A DNA stretch of 36,006 nucleotides from Flavobacteriales bacterium (GTDB lineage Bacteria > Bacteroidota > Bacteroidia > Flavobacteriales > Flavobacteriaceae), in contig JAHEDS010000005.1 in assembly GCA_024641135.1 (NCBI GenBank), positions 1 through 36,006 on the forward strand, in the 5' to 3' direction. A model generated the notes under the pieces. The model did not search any database, was not told where the DNA came from, and worked only from the letters and a program-made list of their open reading frames with translations. Positions 4,110 to 36,006 of the stretch are shown piece by piece. The first letter of the stretch is position 1; each line of letters opens with the position of its first letter. The translations under genes were made by a program, and so were the position numbers.

Positions 4110-5361
4110 CTGGAAAGTTATTTTAAGTATTGCTAAAACACATTTGCTTACCAAAATAAAGCAAACTACCATTGCGTCTTTAGGTGTAACTTTTGGCATT
4201 GGTTCCTACATTACATTAGTCTGTTTTATGACAGGTTTAAATACCATGCTTGATGATTTAATTCTAAATCAAACACCACATATTCATATTTATAATGAAA
4301 TAGAACCCTCAAAAAAGCAACCGGCTTCATTTTTGGATTTAGAAAACACGTTTAATGTCGTACATTCTATTAAACCTAAACTCAGTCAGAAAAAAATTCA
4401 TAATGCGTTACCAATTATAAATTATTTAAATAATGATATTAATGTTAAAGGTGCTATACCAGAAATAAAAACTCAAATATTTTATATTGCTGGCTCCATT
4501 GAAATTGGAGGTAATTTAACAGGAGTTAATATTTTAGATGAAGCCAAATTATTTAATCTTCAAAATTATATTATTGAAGGTTCTCCTGAAGACTTGAATA
4601 ATAATGATAACGGTATTTTATTAGGAGCAGGTATTGCAAGGAAAATGTCTTTATCGGTTGGGGAACGCATTCAAATTAGTACAATAAAAGGTGATGTTTT
4701 TCCACTTAAAATTGTGGGTCTTTATCAAAGTGGAATAGCTGATATTGATGCTGTTCAAAGTTTTGCAAATTTGAAAACGGTACAACGTATTTTGGGTGAA
4801 GCAGAAAATTATGTTACCGACATTAATGTGAAGTTATACGACCTCGAATTAGCTCCTGCTTTATCAAAAAAAATAGAACAACAGTTTAACCTAAAAGCCA
4901 TAGATATTAAAACTGCCAATGCCCAATTTGAAACCGGAACTACTATAAGAAACCTAATAACTTATGCCGTTTCTATAACCTTACTTATAGTAGCGGGATT
5001 TGGTATTTACAATATTTTAAATATGCTTATTTATGAAAAAATGAATGACATTGCCATATTAAAAGCCACTGGTTTTTCAGGTAAAGATGTTCAATTAATT
5101 TTTATGAGTCAGGCCATGATTATAGGTTTTGTTGGAGGTGTTTTGGGCTTACTACTTGGTTTTGGTCTGGCTAGCTTAATTGAAACCATTCCTTTCAAAA
5201 CAGAATCATTACCAACCATAGAAACTTATCCAGTTAATATCAATCCAATGTTTTTTGTCATTGGGTTTTCATTTGCTATGATTTCAACATTTATGGCTGG
5301 TTACTTTCCATCAAAAAAGGCTAAAAAAATAGATCCAGTAGACATTATAAGAGGTCAATAA
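4102..5361 (+). CDS. MacB/LolC-type ABC transporter permease
   Basis: A 419-residue FtsX-superfamily permease with the MacB/LolC layout: an N-terminal transmembrane helix (about 22-45), a large periplasmic MacB-PCD-like domain (about 50-275), and three C-terminal helices (about 285-310, 335-360, 380-405) ending in a basic segment ('PSKKAKKIDPVDIIRG'). This last motif is typical for MacB/FtsX permeases. It overlaps the adaptor gene by 8 bases and is one base from the ATPase gene, so the three make one tripartite exporter acting by the mechanotransmission mechanism known for this superfamily. Substrate unknown. Confidence 0.9.
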   Translation: MTNWKVILSIAKTHLLTKIKQTTIASLGVTFGIGSYITLVCFMTGLNTMLDDLILNQTPHIHIYNEIEPSKKQPASFLDLENTFNVVHSIKPKLSQKKIHNALPIINYLNNDINVKGAIPEIKTQIFYIAGSIEIGGNLTGVNILDEAKLFNLQNYIIEGSPEDLNNNDNGILLGAGIARKMSLSVGERIQISTIKGDVFPLKIVGLYQSGIADIDAVQSFANLKTVQRILGEAENYVTDINVKLYDLELAPALSKKIEQQFNLKAIDIKTANAQFETGTTIRNLITYAVSITLLIVAGFGIYNILNMLIYEKMNDIAILKATGFSGKDVQLIFMSQAMIIGFVGGVLGLLLGFGLASLIETIPFKTESLPTIETYPVNINPMFFVIGFSFAMISTFMAGYFPSKKAKKIDPVDIIRGQ

Positions 5362-28421: not shown

Positions 28422-29066
28422 CTATCGTTTTATAATTGAAGAAATAACCCCTTCCTTTTCTAAAGATTTAATAATGGCTTTTACATAATCATTAACGGTC
28501 GCATTAATTGATTTTGGGTCTATAATATTAAAAGAGGCCACCCAAACTAAAGATTTGTCTTCATCTTTTTTTAAATTAAATAAAGTGGCTTCAATATTAT
28601 AAATATTATATTTTTCGTAATATCCTGGATCAAAATAGACATCTTGATAGTAATAATAATAGCGCCCAAATCGTCTCCAATAATAATCTGTTCTATACAT
28701 GTCGGCCGAGTAAACAGTTTTTTGATTTACACCTTTTACTGCTGAAATTAAAATAGCATCAAACCCGTTTTCTGAAAGTCTCTCTACTTCTTTCTCAATA
28801 CTCTCTTCAGTTTGTTTAATACTAGTAAAATGTGATTCAAATACATCTGAACTTTCAATAGCATCAACTCCCCTATTTTTAAGTTCGCTTGCCAAATTGT
28901 TTTCAAATATTTTTCGGGCTGTTAAATTATCGGTAATACCCACTACCACTACCTTATTAGGCGTGTAATTTGAATAATCTTTATCAAACCAACTATCTAC
29001 TAATTTTGTGGAAGAACAATTAAACAATAACAATATTGTCAATATGCTCAATATCCTTTTCATCAT
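28422..29066 (-). CDS. Lipoprotein of unknown function
   Basis: A 214-residue lipoprotein with lipobox LFNC (Cys about residue 17) followed by 'SSTKLVDSWFD'. The segment 'VVVVGITDNLTARKIFENNLASELKNRG' (by position about 38-65) resembles periplasmic alpha/beta lipoproteins of the DUF4136/CsgG-like group in which 'R-x-x-x-E' helices follow a hydrophobic strand. A Tyr-rich stretch lies around 128-150. The second Met is an equally good start. First gene of the operon with the D-lactate dehydrogenase-like gene; promoter at 29084-29127. Confidence 0.75.
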   Translation of the reverse strand: MMKRILSILTILLLFNCSSTKLVDSWFDKDYSNYTPNKVVVVGITDNLTARKIFENNLASELKNRGVDAIESSDVFESHFTSIKQTEESIEKEVERLSENGFDAILISAVKGVNQKTVYSADMYRTDYYWRRFGRYYYYYQDVYFDPGYYEKYNIYNIEATLFNLKKDEDKSLVWVASFNIIDPKSINATVNDYVKAIIKSLEKEGVISSIIKR

Positions 29067-29083
29067 TTATAGGTTTTATTTAA

Positions 29084-29127
29084 TAAAAATATCTGATAAT
29101 TACAGGATTAGCAATGATATAAATCAA
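29084..29127 (-). promoter_or_regulatory. FNR/CRP-like operator plus -7 box, lipoprotein/dehydrogenase operon
   Basis: On the minus strand TTGAT-TTAT-ATCAT (29127-29114), 22 bases, then TATTTTTA (29091-29084); start codon at 29066. This is the last copy in the window. Confidence 0.82.
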
Positions 29128-29160
29128 TCGAAATTTAACTTCAAACAATAAGGGAATAAT

Positions 29161-29191
29161 AAAACCCAATACGTATTAGGTATTGGGTTTT
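29161..29191. terminator. Terminator-like hairpin at left edge of repeat array
   Basis: AAAACCCAATAC (29161-29172) pairs perfectly with GTATTGGGTTTT (29180-29191) around a 7-base loop. No protein gene ends here: the operon to its left starts at 29066 and reads away. It would therefore serve minus-strand transcription coming out of the array, where the stem is followed by GGGTTTTATTATT. Confidence 0.75.
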
Positions 29192-29285
29192 GGCTATTAA
29201 CTAAAGGTACATTTTGAATCCTTTATCTTATTAATGCATTCCTGTGATTAATTCAACAAGGTGTTCAAAAAACGTTTAAACTAAA
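29188..29285. repeat. Degenerate sixth copy of the array unit
   Basis: GGCTATTAACTAAAGG at 29192 resembles the unit core TTGCTATTAACCTAAGG, and AACGTTTAAACTAAA near 29271 resembles AACGTTTAAATTAAA of unit 4; the distance between the two (about 80 bases) equals that in unit 4. The closing stem and the TCTCTC tract are missing. It is probably a decayed copy. Confidence 0.45.
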
Positions 29286-29416
29286 AATTCCACACAAAAC
29301 CCGAATTGCTATTAATGAATGAAGTTTAAAATAATAAATCTTAATATTCATTTTAAGTCTCTCTCTCAAAAAGACAATGAACGAAGGTATTTATTAAAGG
29401 GTTTATGTGTGGAATT
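29286..29416. ncRNA. Array unit 1
   Basis: 131 bases. Closing stem is 17 bp with one bulged A: AATTCCACACA and AAACCC pair with GGGTTT and TGTGTGGAATT. The C-G pair at stem position 11 of the other units is A-T here. AATGAAT (about 29315) pairs with ATTCATT (about 29346), closing an internal hairpin around the AAAATAATAAA stretch. Most divergent unit. Confidence 0.6.
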
Positions 29417-29482
29417 AGGGGTTTTTAAATATTTTTCATTTTATTTTAAATACAGTAATTATCGCTTTAATATTTTAAAAAA

Positions 29483-29612
29483 AATTCCACACCAACCCAA
29501 AATTGCTATTAACCTATAAACTATTTTTAAAAATATAATCGCTCCTTTAATTGTCTCTCTCTCTCTAAAACACAATGTAAGCGTTTACATAAAACGGTTA
29601 TGGTGTGGAATT
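29483..29612. ncRNA. Array unit 2
   Basis: 130 bases. Closing stem AATTCCACACC/GGTGTGGAATT extended by AACC/GGTT after a two-base bulge. Longest central tract, TCTCTCTCTCTCT. A second hairpin ATGTAA-GCGT-TTACAT lies before the 3' strand of the closing stem. Confidence 0.6.
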
Positions 29613-29654
29613 ATATTTTTATTCTTATATCTTATTTACTTTTTAATTTTTAAA

Positions 29655-29786
29655 AATTCCACACCAATCCAAAATTGCTATTAACCTAAGGAATATTTGT
29701 AAAATAATAAACGCTACTGTAATTGAATCTCTCTCTAAAAAAAACAACATGTAAACGTTTACATAAAACGGTTTAGGTGTGGAATT
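29655..29786. ncRNA. Array unit 3
   Basis: 132 bases. Closing stem extended by AATCC/GGTTT with one T-T mismatch. The second hairpin is the perfect palindrome ATGTAAACGTTTACAT. Almost identical to unit 4 outside this hairpin. Confidence 0.6.
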
Positions 29787-29829
29787 ATACTTCTATTCTT
29801 ATATGTTATTTACTTTTTTAATTTTTAAA

Positions 29830-29961
29830 AATTCCACACCAATCCAAAATTGCTATTAACCTAAGGAATATTTGTAAAATAATAAACGTTACTGTAATTG
29901 AATCTCTCTCTAAAAAAAACAACTTATAAACGTTTAAATTAAACGGTTTAGGTGTGGAATT
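29830..29961. ncRNA. Array unit 4
   Basis: 132 bases, the closest relative of unit 3. Most differences fall in the second hairpin (TTATAAACGTTTAAAT), where only the inner TAAAC/GTTTA pairing remains. Confidence 0.6.
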
Positions 29962-30006
29962 ATACTTCTATTCTTATATGTTTTTTACTTTTTTATTTTC
30001 TTAAAA

Positions 30007-30140
30007 AATTCCACACCAAACCAAAATTGCTATTAACTTCATGAATATGTGTAAAATAATAAAACTTGATTTTCATAATATCTCTCTCTCTCAAAAATAT
30101 CATGATCGAATGTTTTATTATACAGGTTATGGTGTGGAAC
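30007..30140. ncRNA. Array unit 5
   Basis: 134 bases. Closing stem extended by AAACC/GGTT with a bulged A; the last T of the unit end is C. The first internal hairpin is ATGAATAT/ATTTTCAT with one mismatch, different in sequence from that of unit 1 but at the same place. Lies 52 bases beyond the response regulator stop. Confidence 0.6.
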
Positions 30141-30192
30141 TAAGGGTTTATAATTAATATTTGATTATCGTTTTTATTTATGTTATGTTTAT

Positions 30193-30663
30193 TTATTCAT
30201 TAAAAAAATGTGGCGGACTAATATTTTCCTCTAGAAAATCATAAGTGTATAAAAAGGGTTTAAAATTAAATACAATGTTTTCAAGATTAAAAGATGTTAA
30301 TGGTTTAATAATATATCCATGACAAGCACTTTTCTTTTTTGCATTCTGTATATCTATCAAATTCGTGGACGAGGATAGCATATAAATTTTTGTTGAAAAC
30401 CTTTTATCTTCATTCAATACCATAAAACTCTTTAAAAACTCAAATCCATTCATAGTTGGCATGTTGATATCTAATAAAATAATATCTGGAACAAACACGT
30501 CGTCTAATTCTGTGACATTTTTTATTTTATCTAAATAATCAATCGCATGACTAGCACTAAAAAAAGTTCTCACGTCTGTTTCAACCGCTAATTTTTCTAT
30601 TTGCTTTTGATTGATAAACACATCAACTTTACTATCATCAATCAACATAAAATTAATTTTCAT
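30193..30663 (-). CDS. Single-domain response regulator
   Basis: A 156-residue CheY-like receiver with no output domain. Acidic pocket D9/D10 ('LIDDS'), phosphoacceptor D65 ('ILLDINMP'), switch Ser S97 ('MLSSS') and K120 ('IIKPL') are all in place. It is the last gene of the four-gene signalling operon, 2 bases after the histidine kinase. It would relay the phosphate or act by protein contacts. No terminator lies between its stop and the repeat array. Confidence 0.93.
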   Translation of the reverse strand: MKINFMLIDDSKVDVFINQKQIEKLAVETDVRTFFSASHAIDYLDKIKNVTELDDVFVPDIILLDINMPTMNGFEFLKSFMVLNEDKRFSTKIYMLSSSTNLIDIQNAKKKSACHGYIIKPLTSFNLENIVFNFKPFLYTYDFLEENISPPHFFNE

Positions 30664-30665
30664 TT

Positions 30666-32153
30666 TTATCTTAATTTCAAATTATTGGGTAAATTAATTT
30701 TAAAACATGCTCCATTATTTTTTTCACTACTAACAGAAATTCTTCCGTTTAAACTCTCAATAATATTTTTAACGATATAGAGACCTAATCCTGCACTTAC
30801 ATTACCATTCTCATTGTCAGTTCTATAATACAAATCAAATATTTTATCAATCTCTTTATCGCCTATTCCTTTTCCATTATCACAAATTAAAATGACTATT
30901 TCCTCATTTAACGACCTTACTTTTATATCAATTTTAGGCACATGATTTTCAGAAAAAGGCAACGAATATTTTATTGAGTTTTTTATTAAATTTTGAAAAA
31001 TCGAGAAAATAAGGTCCGGATTTGACAAAAAATCGCCAGAATCCTTTATATCAATATTAAATTTTATGTTTTTTGAATTCTTATATCCATTAAGAATGTT
31101 TAATACCTGTCCAACAATTTCATTAAAATTAACAATCTTCAATTCATGTAGATTTGTTGAAATAAGTGAGGCACTTGCAAGATCTTCAGATAGTATTTTG
31201 GCATTATTTAATGTTTCCTCAAGTAATTCTGCTAAAACGTGTACTTTATCAATAGACTCCTCTTCCTTTAATAAACTAATTAATCCTTTTGCTGATGAAA
31301 ATGGACCTTTTATTTCATGAGCTGCCCGATATAGAAACAATTCTAATTCTTTGGTTTTTAGTTTTAACCTTTTTTGAAATGCCAGACGCTTTGTGATATC
31401 AAGCATCTTAATTATATAAGATTCTTTTTCGTTAATATACCAGTTCTTAATAATAAATTCTACTGGGAATTCTTCTCCATTTTTTTTAACACAATTTAAT
31501 TCTACTATCTCGGTGTTTTGAGCCTTTTTAAACCTATTAATTAATTTTAAAAACTCGCTAAGGTTTCTTTTTTTATACCTATTAGCCATTAAACCCTTTA
31601 ACGAGGTCCCAATCATTTCCAACTCGGTAAAGCCAAAAGCAATGTTAGCTCCCTTATTCCATTTTGTAATTATTCCATTATCGTCTGTAGTAATAATTAT
31701 TTCAACATCACTCGAATTATATATAGAACGATAAAAAGCTTCATCTTCCTCAATTTTATCACTTTTGGATTTAATTTTAGTTATGTCATTATATATGCAT
31801 AAATATTTTAAATTATTTTCGTCCTTATTCTTTATTGGAATAATGGTAGTATCTAACCAAAAAGAAGTGCCTTTTTTAGTTTTATCTTTTAAAACACCTT
31901 GCCAAACCATTCCTTTTTGAATGGTATTCCATAAGTTTTTATATTTAAAAGAAGCATGTAATTCAGACTTTAAAAGTTTATGATTTTCGCCAATTAATTC
32001 ATGAATATTACACTCTAATATGTCACAAAATTTATTATTTACATATTCTATTCTACCAAACGAATCACTTATTGAATAAATACTATTTTCGTTAATTAAG
32101 TTTTGTATTAACTCTTCAGAGTTGTTATTCCAGTAGTATTTAAGTGCCTCCAT
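30666..32153 (-). CDS. Soluble PAS-PAS histidine kinase
   Basis: A 495-residue kinase without membrane helices. Two PAS domains (about 18-128 and 140-257, each ending in a PAC-like 'DITK' motif), a dimerisation helix with the phosphorylated His H279 in 'AAHEIKGP', and an HATPase domain with N-box N392, G1 'DNGKGIG' (425-431) and G2 'GLGLYIVK' (455-462). The HEIKGP box is a variant of the HD/ELRNP class. Signals are therefore cytoplasmic, such as redox or a small ligand in PAS. Presumably phosphorylates the neighbouring response regulator. Gap of 3 bases to the gene upstream. Confidence 0.93.
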   Translation of the reverse strand: MEALKYYWNNNSEELIQNLINENSIYSISDSFGRIEYVNNKFCDILECNIHELIGENHKLLKSELHASFKYKNLWNTIQKGMVWQGVLKDKTKKGTSFWLDTTIIPIKNKDENNLKYLCIYNDITKIKSKSDKIEEDEAFYRSIYNSSDVEIIITTDDNGIITKWNKGANIAFGFTELEMIGTSLKGLMANRYKKRNLSEFLKLINRFKKAQNTEIVELNCVKKNGEEFPVEFIIKNWYINEKESYIIKMLDITKRLAFQKRLKLKTKELELFLYRAAHEIKGPFSSAKGLISLLKEEESIDKVHVLAELLEETLNNAKILSEDLASASLISTNLHELKIVNFNEIVGQVLNILNGYKNSKNIKFNIDIKDSGDFLSNPDLIFSIFQNLIKNSIKYSLPFSENHVPKIDIKVRSLNEEIVILICDNGKGIGDKEIDKIFDLYYRTDNENGNVSAGLGLYIVKNIIESLNGRISVSSEKNNGACFKINLPNNLKLR

Positions 32154-32156
32154 AAA

Positions 32157-32558
32157 TTAATTGTTTTTAGATTCTAAGCAATAAGCTAAAGCCGAAGCAT
32201 CATTATTAAATATTTCAAAAGGAATAGTTGTATTGTATAAACGCTTATAAGAATGAATTAATAAATTCATTGAAAGTGTATTTACTATATAAGCCTCAGA
32301 AATTACTAAAGAAACTTTACTTAATGCATTAGACAAGACTTGAGCTCCAGCTATAGAAAAAGTACCCTTTGTATCCCTTAAATCAATAACAAAAGGTCTT
32401 GGAATACCGTTTGATAACTTAACTATGGCATCAATGTATTTATTTGCTATTTTGAAATCTAATTTGTTTTGAGCATCTAAACTAGTAAGCTTACAAAATA
32501 AGATTCCAGCATTATCAATCCAGAAAGTTGCATGCTCATAAATTATTAATTCGTCCAT
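32157..32558 (-). CDS. STAS-like (SpoIIAA fold) small protein, copy 2
   Basis: A 133-residue protein starting at the ATG at 32558; a start at 32582 would overlap the preceding gene by 14 bases and add eight residues absent from the paralogue. The pattern of a strand pair, 'RPFVIDLRDTKGTFSIAGAQVL' (by position about 60-81) and a C-terminal 'IPFEIFNNDASALAYCLE' matches small Bacteroidota STAS/SpoIIAA-like proteins (DUF7793 type). It is paralogous to the gene upstream. Such proteins often regulate kinases or sigma-factor switches by binding; the kinase encoded next is a plausible partner. Confidence 0.7.
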   Translation of the reverse strand: MDELIIYEHATFWIDNAGILFCKLTSLDAQNKLDFKIANKYIDAIVKLSNGIPRPFVIDLRDTKGTFSIAGAQVLSNALSKVSLVISEAYIVNTLSMNLLIHSYKRLYNTTIPFEIFNNDASALAYCLESKNN

Positions 32559-32568
32559 ATTTCTTGTT

Positions 32569-32985
32569 TTAATTTGCCACATTAAATACTAAATACATTT
32601 TGTTACAATTTTCAATAGCTCCATTAAAATTTTTAAAAATTCTATTGGGAACCACATTTCCACAAAAAACACTAGATAGTTGTAACACAATTTTTAAAAA
32701 TGATGACCTAACTACAAATGTTTTAGATAAAACAGAAATATTCACTTGAAGGCTTTGTGAAAAAAACATAAAAAGTTTAATGGCCTCTAAATTATTTACT
32801 TCTGTTAAATTGATAAGTAATGGAAGATATTTACCCTTAGATAGAAAAGTAAGACTACTATCATTAAATATTTCAGTGACACCAACTTTTAATGACTGAT
32901 AATCAAAACCGTTATCTATATCACAATATATGATGTGGTCTCTTACCGAAAGTTTAACACTATCCAATTGTATTATGTTTTCCAT
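32569..32985 (-). CDS. STAS-like (SpoIIAA fold) small protein, copy 1
   Basis: A 138-residue paralogue of the following gene, with the same order of elements: an N-terminal strand pair ('LSVRDHIIYCDID'), a central 'YLPLLINLTEVNNLEAIKLFMFF' (by position about 53-75) and a C-terminal 'VVPNRIFKNFNGAIENC'. The conserved 'IDLRDTKG' of the paralogue is 'INLTEVNN' here, so any phosphorylation-like site differs. First gene of the signalling operon; the predicted sigma-54 promoter lies 25 bases upstream. Confidence 0.68.
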   Translation of the reverse strand: MENIIQLDSVKLSVRDHIIYCDIDNGFDYQSLKVGVTEIFNDSSLTFLSKGKYLPLLINLTEVNNLEAIKLFMFFSQSLQVNISVLSKTFVVRSSFLKIVLQLSSVFCGNVVPNRIFKNFNGAIENCNKMYLVFNVAN

Positions 32986-33009
32986 ACATCTTCATTTGAA
33001 AAACAAATA

Positions 33010-33026
33010 CCAATTGATGTGCCAAA
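33010..33026 (-). promoter_or_regulatory. Sigma-54 promoter-like sequence
   Basis: On the minus strand TTTGGCAC-ATCAA-TTGG: the -24 GG and the -12 GG are separated by 10 bases, as in sigma-54 promoters (consensus TGGCAC-N5-TTGC). The -12 element has GG where GC is usual. The start codon of the first gene is at 32985. Confidence 0.65.
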
Positions 33027-33114
33027 ACCAAAATAGTCGACACAATAAAATACAACTAATTGTTTATTAGGTATTTATAAATTAAGGTAATCGGTTACAA
33101 TAAAAAGAAAACTC

Positions 33115-33126
33115 ACGGTATTCCGT
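33115..33126. promoter_or_regulatory. Upstream activator palindrome, proximal
   Basis: ACGG-TATT-CCGT, about 120 bp upstream of the expected sigma-54 start site. Same core as the distal copy. Confidence 0.65.
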
Positions 33127-33152
33127 TTTTATATATTACCTATTTTGATAAT

Positions 33153-33168
33153 ACACGGTATTCCGTGT
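33153..33168. promoter_or_regulatory. Upstream activator palindrome, distal
   Basis: ACACGG-TATT-CCGTGT, a longer version of the proximal site, 40 bp from it. Both lie within the distance usual for enhancer-binding activators. They follow directly the stop of the sigma-54 activator gene. Confidence 0.7.
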
Positions 33169-33174
33169 GTTTAA

Positions 33175-36006
33175 TTATGGTTTTTTAATGTCCAGTTTAG
33201 ACATTTTATCGCGAAGTGTGCTAGGCTTTAAACCTAATTTAGCTGAAGCACCATCTGTACCTGAAATTTTCCAATTACATTGTTGTAAAACATTAACAAT
33301 ATGATTACGTTGTGCGGTATCAAATGATAAGTCTTTATCTTTAATTAAAATATTGGTTTTACTTTTTTGCTCTTCAGATTCAAAACCTGGAATAATTAAA
33401 GTTTTTGAAGTAGATAATATGGAAGCGCGTTCAATTAAATTTTCTAGTTCTCTTATATTACCAGGCCATTCATAAGCCGATAACTGTTTCATGGCCGAAT
33501 CTGATATAAATTGTATGTTTTTTCCATACGCCTTATTAAATTTATCAACAAAATGCTCGACCAATAATGGGATATCGTCTTTTCTTTTTCTTAAAGGTGG
33601 GATAACTATAGGAAACACATTTAAACGGAAATACAAATCTTCTCTAAACTGCTTTTTCTCTATTTCTTCCTTAAGGTTACGGTTAGTTGCTGCAATAACT
33701 CTAACATCTAGTTTTTTTAATCCAGTACCACCAACTACTTCAATTTCTCCTTCTTGTAAAAACCTTAATATTTTTGGTTGCATATCTAAAGGCAGCTCAC
33801 CTATTTCATCTAAAAACAGCGTCCCGCCATCTGCTAATTCAAATTTTCCAATTTTATCGCTAAAAGCCCCAGTAAAGGAGCCCTTTTTATGGCCAAATAG
33901 CTCGCTTTCTATAAGCTCTCTTGGGATAGCCGAACAATTCACTTTAATTAACGGTTTATTATGGCGCAAGCTTATTTTATGAACGGCTCTCGCTATTAAT
34001 TCTTTTCCTGTTCCCGATTCTCCTAATAATAGTACTGTAGCATTTGTTGGAGCCACTTTTTCAACTTCAGATAGAACATGGCTAAATTCCACACTGCCAT
34101 AAACCATCTCTTCAAAGTTAAAAACCAACTCTAATTCATTTCTTAAATAAACATTCTCCTGTTCTAATTGATTCCTTAAAATATTTAGCTCTTTATTGGC
34201 TTCTAATAATTTTTCATTTGCTTCAAACATACTGCTCTCAGCTAATTTACGTTCGTAACTTTCAATCATTAAAGACACGATACTCGCTATAGAGGTTGCA
34301 AAACTTTCTTCCTCGTTATTAAAAACTCGATTTGGCACAGAACTTTCAAAACTTATAATCCCAAAAGGGCTAAAACGCCCATAAATAAGTACGTCAATTC
34401 TAGAAAAAATATTATTTGGGACAAAATATTCTTTAGCGAACTCTTTAGTAATTGGATTGTTTACAACATCAGAAATATTTAAACTATTTTTACCCATAAA
34501 AGCATTGAAATAGCTCGGATAATCTACTTTTTTAACAACTAATCCTTTTTCAATAAATTTATTGGCTTTGCTATTGTAAAATAACTTACTTATTAATTCT
34601 GAATCATCATTTTCGTATTCCCAAATAGTTACCAATTCAACATTAAGCGCTTTTGCTGTTGTCGTTGCAATTTTTCTTAACGAGGTTCTTAAATCTTCTC
34701 CAATAAGATTCGCTAATTCAATAATTATATTTTTTCTTTGATTTGATATTTCAATATTTTCTTTTAAAATATTTTCCGCTTTTACCCGCATAGAAATATC
34801 TGTGATGGTTGTAAAGTAAGCGATTATTTTACCCTCTTTATTTTTAATAACAGCATCTGATAAAGAAACCGGAAATCGCTCTCCAGTTTTTTTCATTAAA
34901 ACAGCTTCCTTATTAATACTTAAATTTTTAAGTGGATTATTAAATGCCTTAAATATAGAGTCATATTCTTCTGGTGGCCAGTATGGAAAAGGTGCTTTTA
35001 TACCAACAAGTTCCTCTTCACTAAAACCGGTCATTTGGCATAAAGCGTCATTTACTTTTATATGAGTACCTTCTAAATCTACAACAGACAATCCTTCATT
35101 TAAAGATGTAATGAGTGTTTCAGAAAACTCTTTTTCTGTTTTTAATTCACCCTCAGCAACTAACCGCTCCTTACTTTCTACCATTACAGACACAATACTT
35201 GCTAAAGACGTTGCAAATTCTTGGTCTTCTGCTAACCATTCTCTATTTGTTAGACCAACATGTTCAAAACAAATAATACCATAATAACCATTTGTACTAT
35301 TAATAAACACATCCATTAAGGACCGTATTTGATTTGGTTTTAAATAGTTATTTGTAAATTTTTTAGTAATCTTATCTTTTTGAGCATCTTTTACAATAAT
35401 AGTCCGGTTTTTATATAAAGCCTTAAAATAATCCGGATTATCTTCAAATTTTAGACGGTGCCCTTCTTCAAAAGAATCCTTTCCTGAAATATATAATTTT
35501 CTACAAAATATTTCAGTTCCATCTTCATTAAATCGCCAAACGCTTACTCTTTCTGCATTTAGAGTTTTAGCTGCAAGCTTAGTTATTTTATTTAAGCTTG
35601 TATTAAAATCTTTACCTACATATGTTGTCAATTCCAAAATAACATCTTTCTTAAGGGCTGATTTTTTAGCAGCTTCTTCCAATGCTCTTTTAGCCTTTTC
35701 TTCTTTAGAAATATCTTTCATGGTTCCAAACAAAGCAATCACTTCATTTTTATCGTTTGTAATGGTTCCAGTTAAAAAGGTTGCTAAAAAATGCTCTCCG
35801 TTTTTTCTAATAAATTCAAATTGAAATTCAGGGTTTTTACCTTCAGCAACTTTTTGGTTAGTACGACCTATTTCTTCAAAATCTTCTGGTTTTGCAAACG
35901 GATAAGGTAAATCCATTCCAACAAGTTCTTCTTTAGAATATCCCAGCATATTGCAGGTAGATTGATTAACCAAAATAATTTTTCCACCCGGATTAACAAT
36001 TATTAA
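33175..36006 (-). CDS. FhlA-like sigma-54-dependent activator (5' end outside window)
   Basis: At least 943 residues; the frame stays open to the window edge and reads as an ongoing PAS domain ([13 protein letters not shown]...), so the true start is outside and the TTG at 35973 is not used. Counting from 35973: PAS about 1-95, GAF about 110-270, PAS about 285-395, GAF about 415-575, coiled coil 575-615, AAA+ domain 625-860 with Walker A GESGTGKE (651-658), sigma-54 contact loop GSFTGA (698-703; usual GAFTGA) and Walker B LFLDEIGE, then a Fis-type helix-turn-helix (about 886-930, '[20 protein letters not shown]'). It activates RNA polymerase with sigma-54. Two palindromes beyond its stop and a sigma-54 promoter for the next operon suggest its target. 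Confidence 0.93.

Follow-up and report, generated by a model that had tools for sequence, protein, structure and literature searches.

A previously uncatalogued tandem array of structured RNA elements in a Flavobacteriales genome: candidate sibling small RNAs with predicted target leaders

The 36,006-nt stretch of DNA analysed here (the window) contains five tandem units of about 130 bp at positions 29286–30141, and on balance these probably encode five sibling trans-acting base-pairing sRNAs that are read from the minus strand, trail a histidine-kinase/response-regulator operon and have predicted mRNA targets. The array comprises several homologous noncoding structured units, as sibling trans-acting sRNAs do, and database and genome searches indicate that it is previously uncatalogued. 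The initial annotation had proposed tandem paralogous small RNAs. This reading is the best supported, owing to the synteny of a single unit in a congeneric genome (G153; the present genome is G000), the conservation of unit u1, the covariation of the predicted structure, and the absence of both a conserved open reading frame and an Rfam match; a strand, a seed, targets and an ancestral copy were missing from the proposal. Computation provides the units and their conservation, the single syntenic copy in the relative, a covarying structure and a strand bias, together with leader complementarity for one orthologous gene pair and two further genes.

Organization of the array

The units, all assigned to the minus strand, occupy 29286–29416 (u1), 29483–29612 (u2), 29655–29786 (u3), 29830–29961 (u4) and 30007–30141 (u5). 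The five ~130-bp units with inverted-repeat ends of the initial annotation were confirmed, and its period of about 175 bp compares with start-to-start distances of 197, 172, 175 and 177 from u1 to u5. The inverted ends are AATTCCACACC and GGTGTGGAATT, with an A/T innermost position in u1, and u5 terminates in GGAACT. The reported invariant block, ATTGCTATTAA, and central tract, TCTCTCTC, are each present in all five units, and little or no variation is seen in the end stem, AATTGCTATTAA or TCTCTCTC. Any two array units are 67–96% identical, the top pair being u3 and u4 at 96%. Three of the four spacers (u2–u3, u3–u4 and u4–u5) are mutually alike at 42–45 bp, as had been claimed for all of them, whereas the 66-bp u1–u2 spacer is unlike the others. 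On neither strand does a reading frame continue across all units, a single sense frame being open in u3 and u4 alone; the annotated lack of a conserved ORF is thus borne out and peptide coding was rejected.

The upstream neighbours, on the same strand, are a single-domain response regulator (PF00072; 30193–30663, minus), which stands in the same order in G153, and a PAS-PAS histidine kinase (30666–32153, minus), a homologue of which lies upstream in G153. Ahead of these, also on the same strand, the region 32157–35973 encodes a PAS-GAF sigma-54 activator and two small proteins, of which one is a DUF7793 protein and the other has no Pfam match. Downstream of the array, adjoining u1, is a lipoprotein-like gene (28422–29066, minus; lipoprotein by eye) with 76% amino acid identity in G153 and no match in Pfam or NCBIfam. 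The first unit starts 28 nt after the regulator stop codon in G153 and 51 nt after it in the window, where that unit is u5. No consensus promoter was found directly ahead of any unit, and no TAnnTTTG promoter in the gap from the regulator to u5; for a sigma-54 promoter within the units, the assessment was by eye. Because both flanking genes, too, lie on the minus strand and the promoter box is absent between regulator and u5, co-transcription of the array with the kinase/regulator operon would be the simplest reading.

A possible terminator of the array transcript lies at 29161–29191 (minus), where an inverted repeat with 15-nt arms, 93% complementary, is followed by a T-rich stretch; a simple terminator scan did not call it. 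A copy of GCTATTAAC beside u1, at 29161–29214 with this inverted repeat, resembles parts of a unit, and the region may be the remnant of a sixth unit or else the terminator of the array. Closer to the lipoprotein and 2-hydroxyacid-dehydrogenase genes, GATTGATTTATATCATTGC at 29111–29129 (minus) is identical in G153; it resembles a CRP/FNR-type box.

Distribution of the unit

A single-unit BLAST query matches all five array units with E-values from 4.3e-64 to 1.6e-11. G153 has one unit at the corresponding position, flanked by the same response-regulator and lipoprotein genes, which argues that the array is not a scattered insertion. The end-block pattern, with up to three mismatches, matched the five array units and nothing else in G000. 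A covariance model (R1) was built from the five array units and the G153 unit, the u5 row in the alignment and model being 30007–30139, 2 nt shorter than the unit. In G000, with 150 of 3606 candidates scored, it returned the same five units, u1 scoring 121.7 bits as a training sequence, and one further match at chance level (24 bits, E 0.63). Among seven genomes of the genus, E-values below 1e-20 were obtained in two, G000 (five units) and G153 (one); three of the remaining five had R1 matches only at E 0.8 or worse and two had none. G133 and G150 keep the lipoprotein and dehydrogenase genes with a different gene upstream, and no convincing unit was found in these genomes with R1 or in the part of the G150 intergenic region that was read.

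Across 397 family genomes, a draw of which G153 was not part, R1 reached E≤0.01 in G000 alone (stricter filters; 8 candidates scored per genome). Single-unit BLAST against 149 family genomes (5 candidates scored per genome) gave 23 weak outside matches, chance-like and spanning just 19–36 nt of the query. Significant covariance-model matches in the genus and family genomes are thus those of G000 and G153, and scattered insertions, the outcome that the initial annotation had held to count against its proposal, were searched for in G000 and the family genomes and not found. Searches of phage and plasmid collections for the unit brought no gain. Exact end-block patterns had no match in viral contigs and matched, among genome contigs, that of G153 and one Dehalococcoidales sequence, taken as chance; at four loci with three mismatches to the end block, a second arm was not seen by eye. 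Scanned with the 3′ half-motif, the collected loci showed units in G000 and G153 alone, apart from L044 and a loose hit at L078. At L044 (1501–1528; G319), the sequence TTAATAGCTGGTTTGGTTTTGTGTGGAA is similar to a unit's 3′ half, with no upstream 5′ arm seen by eye. Inspection by eye of the 700 nt downstream of the nine best regulator homologues from other genera also yielded no gain.

Rfam 15 gave no match in the window at gathering score. At E≤10 the sole match touching a unit within 29100–30250 was rox2, whose 17.5 bits (E 8.3) fall below the cut-off of 55, and the G153 unit had no match at E≤5, in keeping with the earlier view that the units fall outside known Rfam families. Several other classes were rejected. 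ARAGORN found no tRNA or tmRNA gene in 29000–30300. A CRISPR array is at odds with repeats of ~130 bp that are 67–96% alike and with spacers alike in three of four cases, and a MITE or IS-derived repeat with the lack of scattered copies at unrelated places in G000 or the family genomes. As a structured RNA of flavobacteria that is closed by a long stem, 6S-Flavo (RF01685) resembles an array unit; the 6S-Flavo of G000 was located elsewhere, at C91:64003–64109 (115.7 bits), on the same contig and 34 kb off (L059).

Conservation and history

At the DNA level u1 is 82% identical to the G153 unit and 67–71% identical to u2–u5, which suggests that u1 is the orthologue and the others are duplicates; by this comparison u1 is likely to be the ancestral copy. 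The 96% identity of u3 and u4 points to a recent duplication. Flanking DNA of the two genomes is 69% identical in the regulator, 78% in the lipoprotein gene and 65% in the compared part of the kinase. The intergenic remainder, which differs in length, has alignment identities of 28% and 35% when gaps are counted, and a 19-nt stretch ahead of the lipoprotein gene is identical in both. As u1 is more conserved than the flanking genes and the intergenic remainder, we infer that the unit is under selection. The duplications may predate the separation of the two species, the extra units then having been lost from G153, or postdate it, with fast divergence.

Fold and strand

Both strands of the five array units fold better than dinucleotide shuffles (z −2.0 to −6.0), and the minus strand does so more strongly than the plus strand in every unit. 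The minus-strand consensus has 36 pairs and an energy of −21.2, with changes on both sides in 8 pairs, against 13 pairs, −12.7 and one doubly changed pair for the plus strand. The 8 of 36 doubly changed pairs and the 92.5% of cells paired were each matched in none of 500 shuffles, and the further pair types were attained in 18 of 500. Slid partners were 37–52% paired, in a comparison that favours the structure because it was derived from the same alignment of six sequences from two species. A run of 5–8 T starts at the last two bases of the 3′ arm on the minus strand of all six units, and a T-run after the stem occurs in none of the six on the plus strand. For the G153 unit, mononucleotide shuffles place the antisense strand slightly better (z −4.45, sense z −4.18), whereas the sense strand has the lower energy (−35.5, antisense −31.4). 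Taken with the models of the fold, an RNA read from the minus strand is most likely.

Two elements are invariant in all six units. One is AGAGAG, which is placed in an apical hairpin. The other is the block UUAAUAGCAAUU, a possible second contact found on the minus strand at 29304–29315 in u1, 29501–29512 in u2, 29673–29684 in u3, 29848–29859 in u4 and 30025–30036 in u5, with a mean unpaired probability of 0.51–0.81.

Predicted seed and candidate target leaders

The invariance of AGAGAG, the apical hairpin and duplex energies make U4-5(A/G)GAGAGAG the likely seed. The predicted seeds, on the minus strand, are UUUUUGAGAGAGAGA in u1 (29358–29372), UUUUAGAGAGAGAGAGA in u2 (29554–29570), UUUUAGAGAGAGA in u3 (29728–29740) and u4 (29903–29915), and UUUUUGAGAGAGAGAGA in u5 (30081–30097). 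There are two seed types in the array, UUUUGAGAG in u1 and u5 and UUUUAGAGAG in u2–u4. The predicted fold partly sequesters the seed by self-pairing in three of the six units, u1, u3 and u4 (mean unpaired 0.41–0.48).

Given the GAGAGAG loop, CUCUCUC partners were sought. Exact TCTCTCTC has 28 matches in G000, 10 of them in the array and 18 elsewhere at 17 sites. Thirteen of these sites, among them that on C168, fall inside ORFs of 100 aa or longer, three in sense and ten in antisense orientation; the other four are outside. Three of the four end shortly before an ATG on the same strand, by 5 nt in C161, 4 nt in C70 and 1 nt in C132; the fourth, in C76, lies ahead of a terminator-like hairpin after a methylmalonyl-CoA-mutase-like gene (by eye). 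None of the four precedes the start of a gene on the opposite strand. Three of the 17 sites at an ATG corresponds to a binomial P of about 1.7e-4, calculated post hoc and assuming a 0.65% share of such positions, itself a rough figure from about 2,500 genes × 15 nt. The candidate target in C70 encodes at least 877 aa, with a signal peptide (by eye) and LamG, and ends at the contig end; that in C132 encodes 1206 aa with GEVED, LamG and a T9SS tail and was counted as exported; that in C161 encodes 628 aa with a signal peptide (by eye).

The gene in C80 of G153 is the orthologue of the adhesin gene in C70 (46% identity), and each adjoins an OmpR-type regulator, the two regulators being 82% identical. 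Its leader also contains CTCTCTC, in a tract ending 32 nt ahead of the ATG, and ACUCUCUCAAA in this leader is perfectly complementary to UUUGAGAGAGU of the G153 unit, an 11-nt match to the variant seed. The leaders differ along with the seeds: AAUUGUUAUUAACUCUCUCUCUAAAAUG in C70 fits the UUUUAGAGAGAGA seed of u2–u4, and UUGCUACUCUCUCAAA in C80 fits the UUUGAGAGAGU seed of the G153 unit. Exact TAnnTTTG boxes, a promoter motif described in PMC9723704, lie just upstream of C70, C132 and C80, which would place the tract inside a short 5′ leader; C161 has one-mismatch boxes only. The pattern CTCTCTCN{0,12}ATG yielded 20 rows from G000 and 12 from G153, compared with 9 and 10 for a reversed control. 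When the sites outside the array were read singly (12 in G000; 10 in G153, one being the unit itself), real genes had such a site in their leader in the same three cases in G000 and in one case, C80, in G153.

Seed duplexes of C70, C132 and C161 with the G000 units have energies of −14.6 to −21.2, and the best of 86 background leaders, taken upstream of mechanical ORFs of at least 150 aa in G000 loci, reaches −12.4; since the targets were sought by the seed complement, this excess is partly circular. The position at the ATG, the class of gene and the orthologue are facts independent of the seed energy. For whole-unit duplexes, 0–6 of the 86 background leaders equal own-species pairs, and up to 28 do so for cross-species pairs. 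The second contact is strong for C70 with u2–u5 (0/86 background leaders; 7/86 with u1) and for C80 with its own unit (1/86), and weak for C132 (5–23/86) and C161 (3–63/86). A two-part rule, TTGYTAN{0,14}CTCTCT, was not enriched over its reversed control in G000 (11 vs 7) or G153 (8 vs 9). Among distinct classified sites, leader sites numbered 2/9 in G000, 1/8 in G153 and 2/11 in the array-free G149, a third G149 row (50 nt off, antisense in an ORF) being left out of the leader count; there were none in G133 (0/6), G150 (0/6), G151 (0/4) or G152 (0/3).

Both G149 leader sites are 32 nt before an ATG, and one, with CTCTCTCT, has a tract as good as that of C80. At L209 of this genome (C46:104900–106900), a thioredoxin-like lipoprotein gene (by eye) has TTGTTAAACTCTCTCTAT 32 nt ahead of its ATG, a sequence that may reflect chance or be the pairing partner of something else. 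The C76 site (L106, about 1460–1545; L217, about 4135–4220), in the 3′ region of the mutase-like gene, has a (CT)6 tract followed by the terminator-like hairpin, with ATTGCTAT upstream. Its duplex with u2 (−50.6) is within background (mean −32.3, best −51.6 in 250 windows), as are those with u1 and u5. The C76 transcript is a possible sponge for the array RNAs.

Proposed mechanism and alternative explanations

We propose that the array is transcribed on the minus strand together with the upstream histidine-kinase/response-regulator operon, and so would come under two-component control, and that, at each end stem, processing, termination or both would release separate ~130-nt RNAs. Each RNA would fold with AAUUCCACACC/GGUGUGGAAUU as its closed stem and, above this, an inner stem and the apical hairpin presenting the seed, which would pair with CUCUCUC tracts directly before the start codon or further up the leader, the UUAAUAGCAAUU block adding a possible second contact. 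Such pairing would block translation initiation of mRNAs for large exported surface proteins. Units u2–u5 would have arisen from u1 by tandem duplication. A more far-reaching version, in which the array is a compact signalling-to-surface switch new to Bacteroidota, with an expanding set of sRNAs at the 3′ end of the sensor kinase/regulator operon whose seed variants, made by tandem duplication, co-evolve with the leaders of giant T9SS-type surface proteins, and with C76 as a possible (CU)6 sponge, is put forward only tentatively.

The position of the unit, 28 nt (G153) or 51 nt (window) past the regulator stop with no consensus promoter between, and the T-runs after the end stem would also suit a cis-only 3′-UTR element on the kinase/regulator mRNA, that is, a long-loop terminator and stability element multiplied by neutral tandem duplication. 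We regard this as rather doubtful, as a terminator needs neither the invariant apical AGAGAG nor the invariant UUAAUAGCAAUU, and complementary tracts stand at the start codons of a few exported-protein genes, in one case also in the leader of the orthologue. The near-identical loop motif repeated over five tandem hairpins could instead mark a decoy RNA whose GAGAGAG loops titrate an RNA-binding protein by an Rsm/Csr-like logic. The protein partner is hypothetical, however, and the loop-adjacent bases vary between species along with the C70/C80 leader, which protein binding does not predict, although this is one gene pair; a decoy is unlikely.

That the functional RNA is the plus strand, with UCUCUCUC as a CU-rich seed, is very unlikely. 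That strand also folds better than shuffles (z −4.45 for the G153 unit), and UCCC is described in PMC4132741 as a motif characteristic of sRNAs in low-GC bacteria, but its consensus of 13 pairs with one double change, the missing T-run after the stem and the absence of GAGAGAGA before a start codon at any of the four non-ORF sites weigh against it. The inverted repeats at the unit ends would fit a cruciform or protein-binding array acting at the DNA level, a reading we consider highly improbable: G-U pairs and covariation in the inner stem favour an RNA read from one strand, and the lone unit in G153 makes an array function unlikely. Terminal inverted repeats are also what a MITE-like mobile element would have, yet no further copy was found in G000, none appeared at E≤0.01 in the 396 other family genomes under strict filters, and the G153 unit is at the same place, so that such an origin hardly deserves credence.

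Relation to known systems

By analogy, the nearest functional parallels to the proposed sibling sRNAs are LhrC1-5, CcsR1-4 and GibS. LhrC1-5 of Listeria monocytogenes are five copies whose short seed recurs redundantly in loops and in a single-stranded region; their expression depends on the two-component system LisRK, and they impede translation of the adhesin mRNA lapB (PMC4132741). The array shares with them five copies and, as predicted here, a short repeated seed, a two-component link and an adhesin target. LhrC1-5 differ in belonging to another phylum, in having a UCCC seed instead of GAGAGAG and in their own LisR-dependent promoters; the sequences were compared through Rfam only. Membership of the LhrC family was rejected, UCCC being absent from the predicted loops and Rfam giving no match. 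The homologous sRNAs CcsR1-4 of Rhodobacter sphaeroides share a transcript with an upstream protein gene and are processed out of its 3′ UTR (PMC8307010); unlike the array they are four copies, follow a gene for an RNA-binding protein, ccaF1, instead of a kinase/regulator pair, and have other targets.

GibS of Bacteroides thetaiotaomicron is a trans-encoded sRNA that pairs with translation initiation regions, and was called in 2020 the first Bacteroidota trans-acting sRNA with known targets (PMC7366714). In contrast to an array unit it is intergenic and largely unstructured, with its seed in the 5′ part, and the available part of that source mentions no tandem array. Rfp18 and other sRNAs of Flavobacterium psychrophilum are mapped Flavobacteriaceae sRNAs with TAnnTTTG promoters (PMC9723704); they are set apart from the array by description only, the available text mentioning no tandem sRNA array. 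A review of sibling sRNAs (PMC4211561) tabulates other cases, and its available text has no word beginning 'Bacteroid'. Among the matches listed for tandem, sibling and Bacteroides sRNAs, from which subscription journals were mostly absent, no title or abstract opening describes the array.

Few Bacteroidota trans-acting sRNAs with known targets exist to our knowledge. The array offers a case with a conserved structure, an explicit seed, a single-copy relative and named candidate target leaders, one seed–leader pair differing together between species, and this combination makes it directly testable. If the proposal is true, expansion of sRNA copy number would be a route to new pairing specificities.
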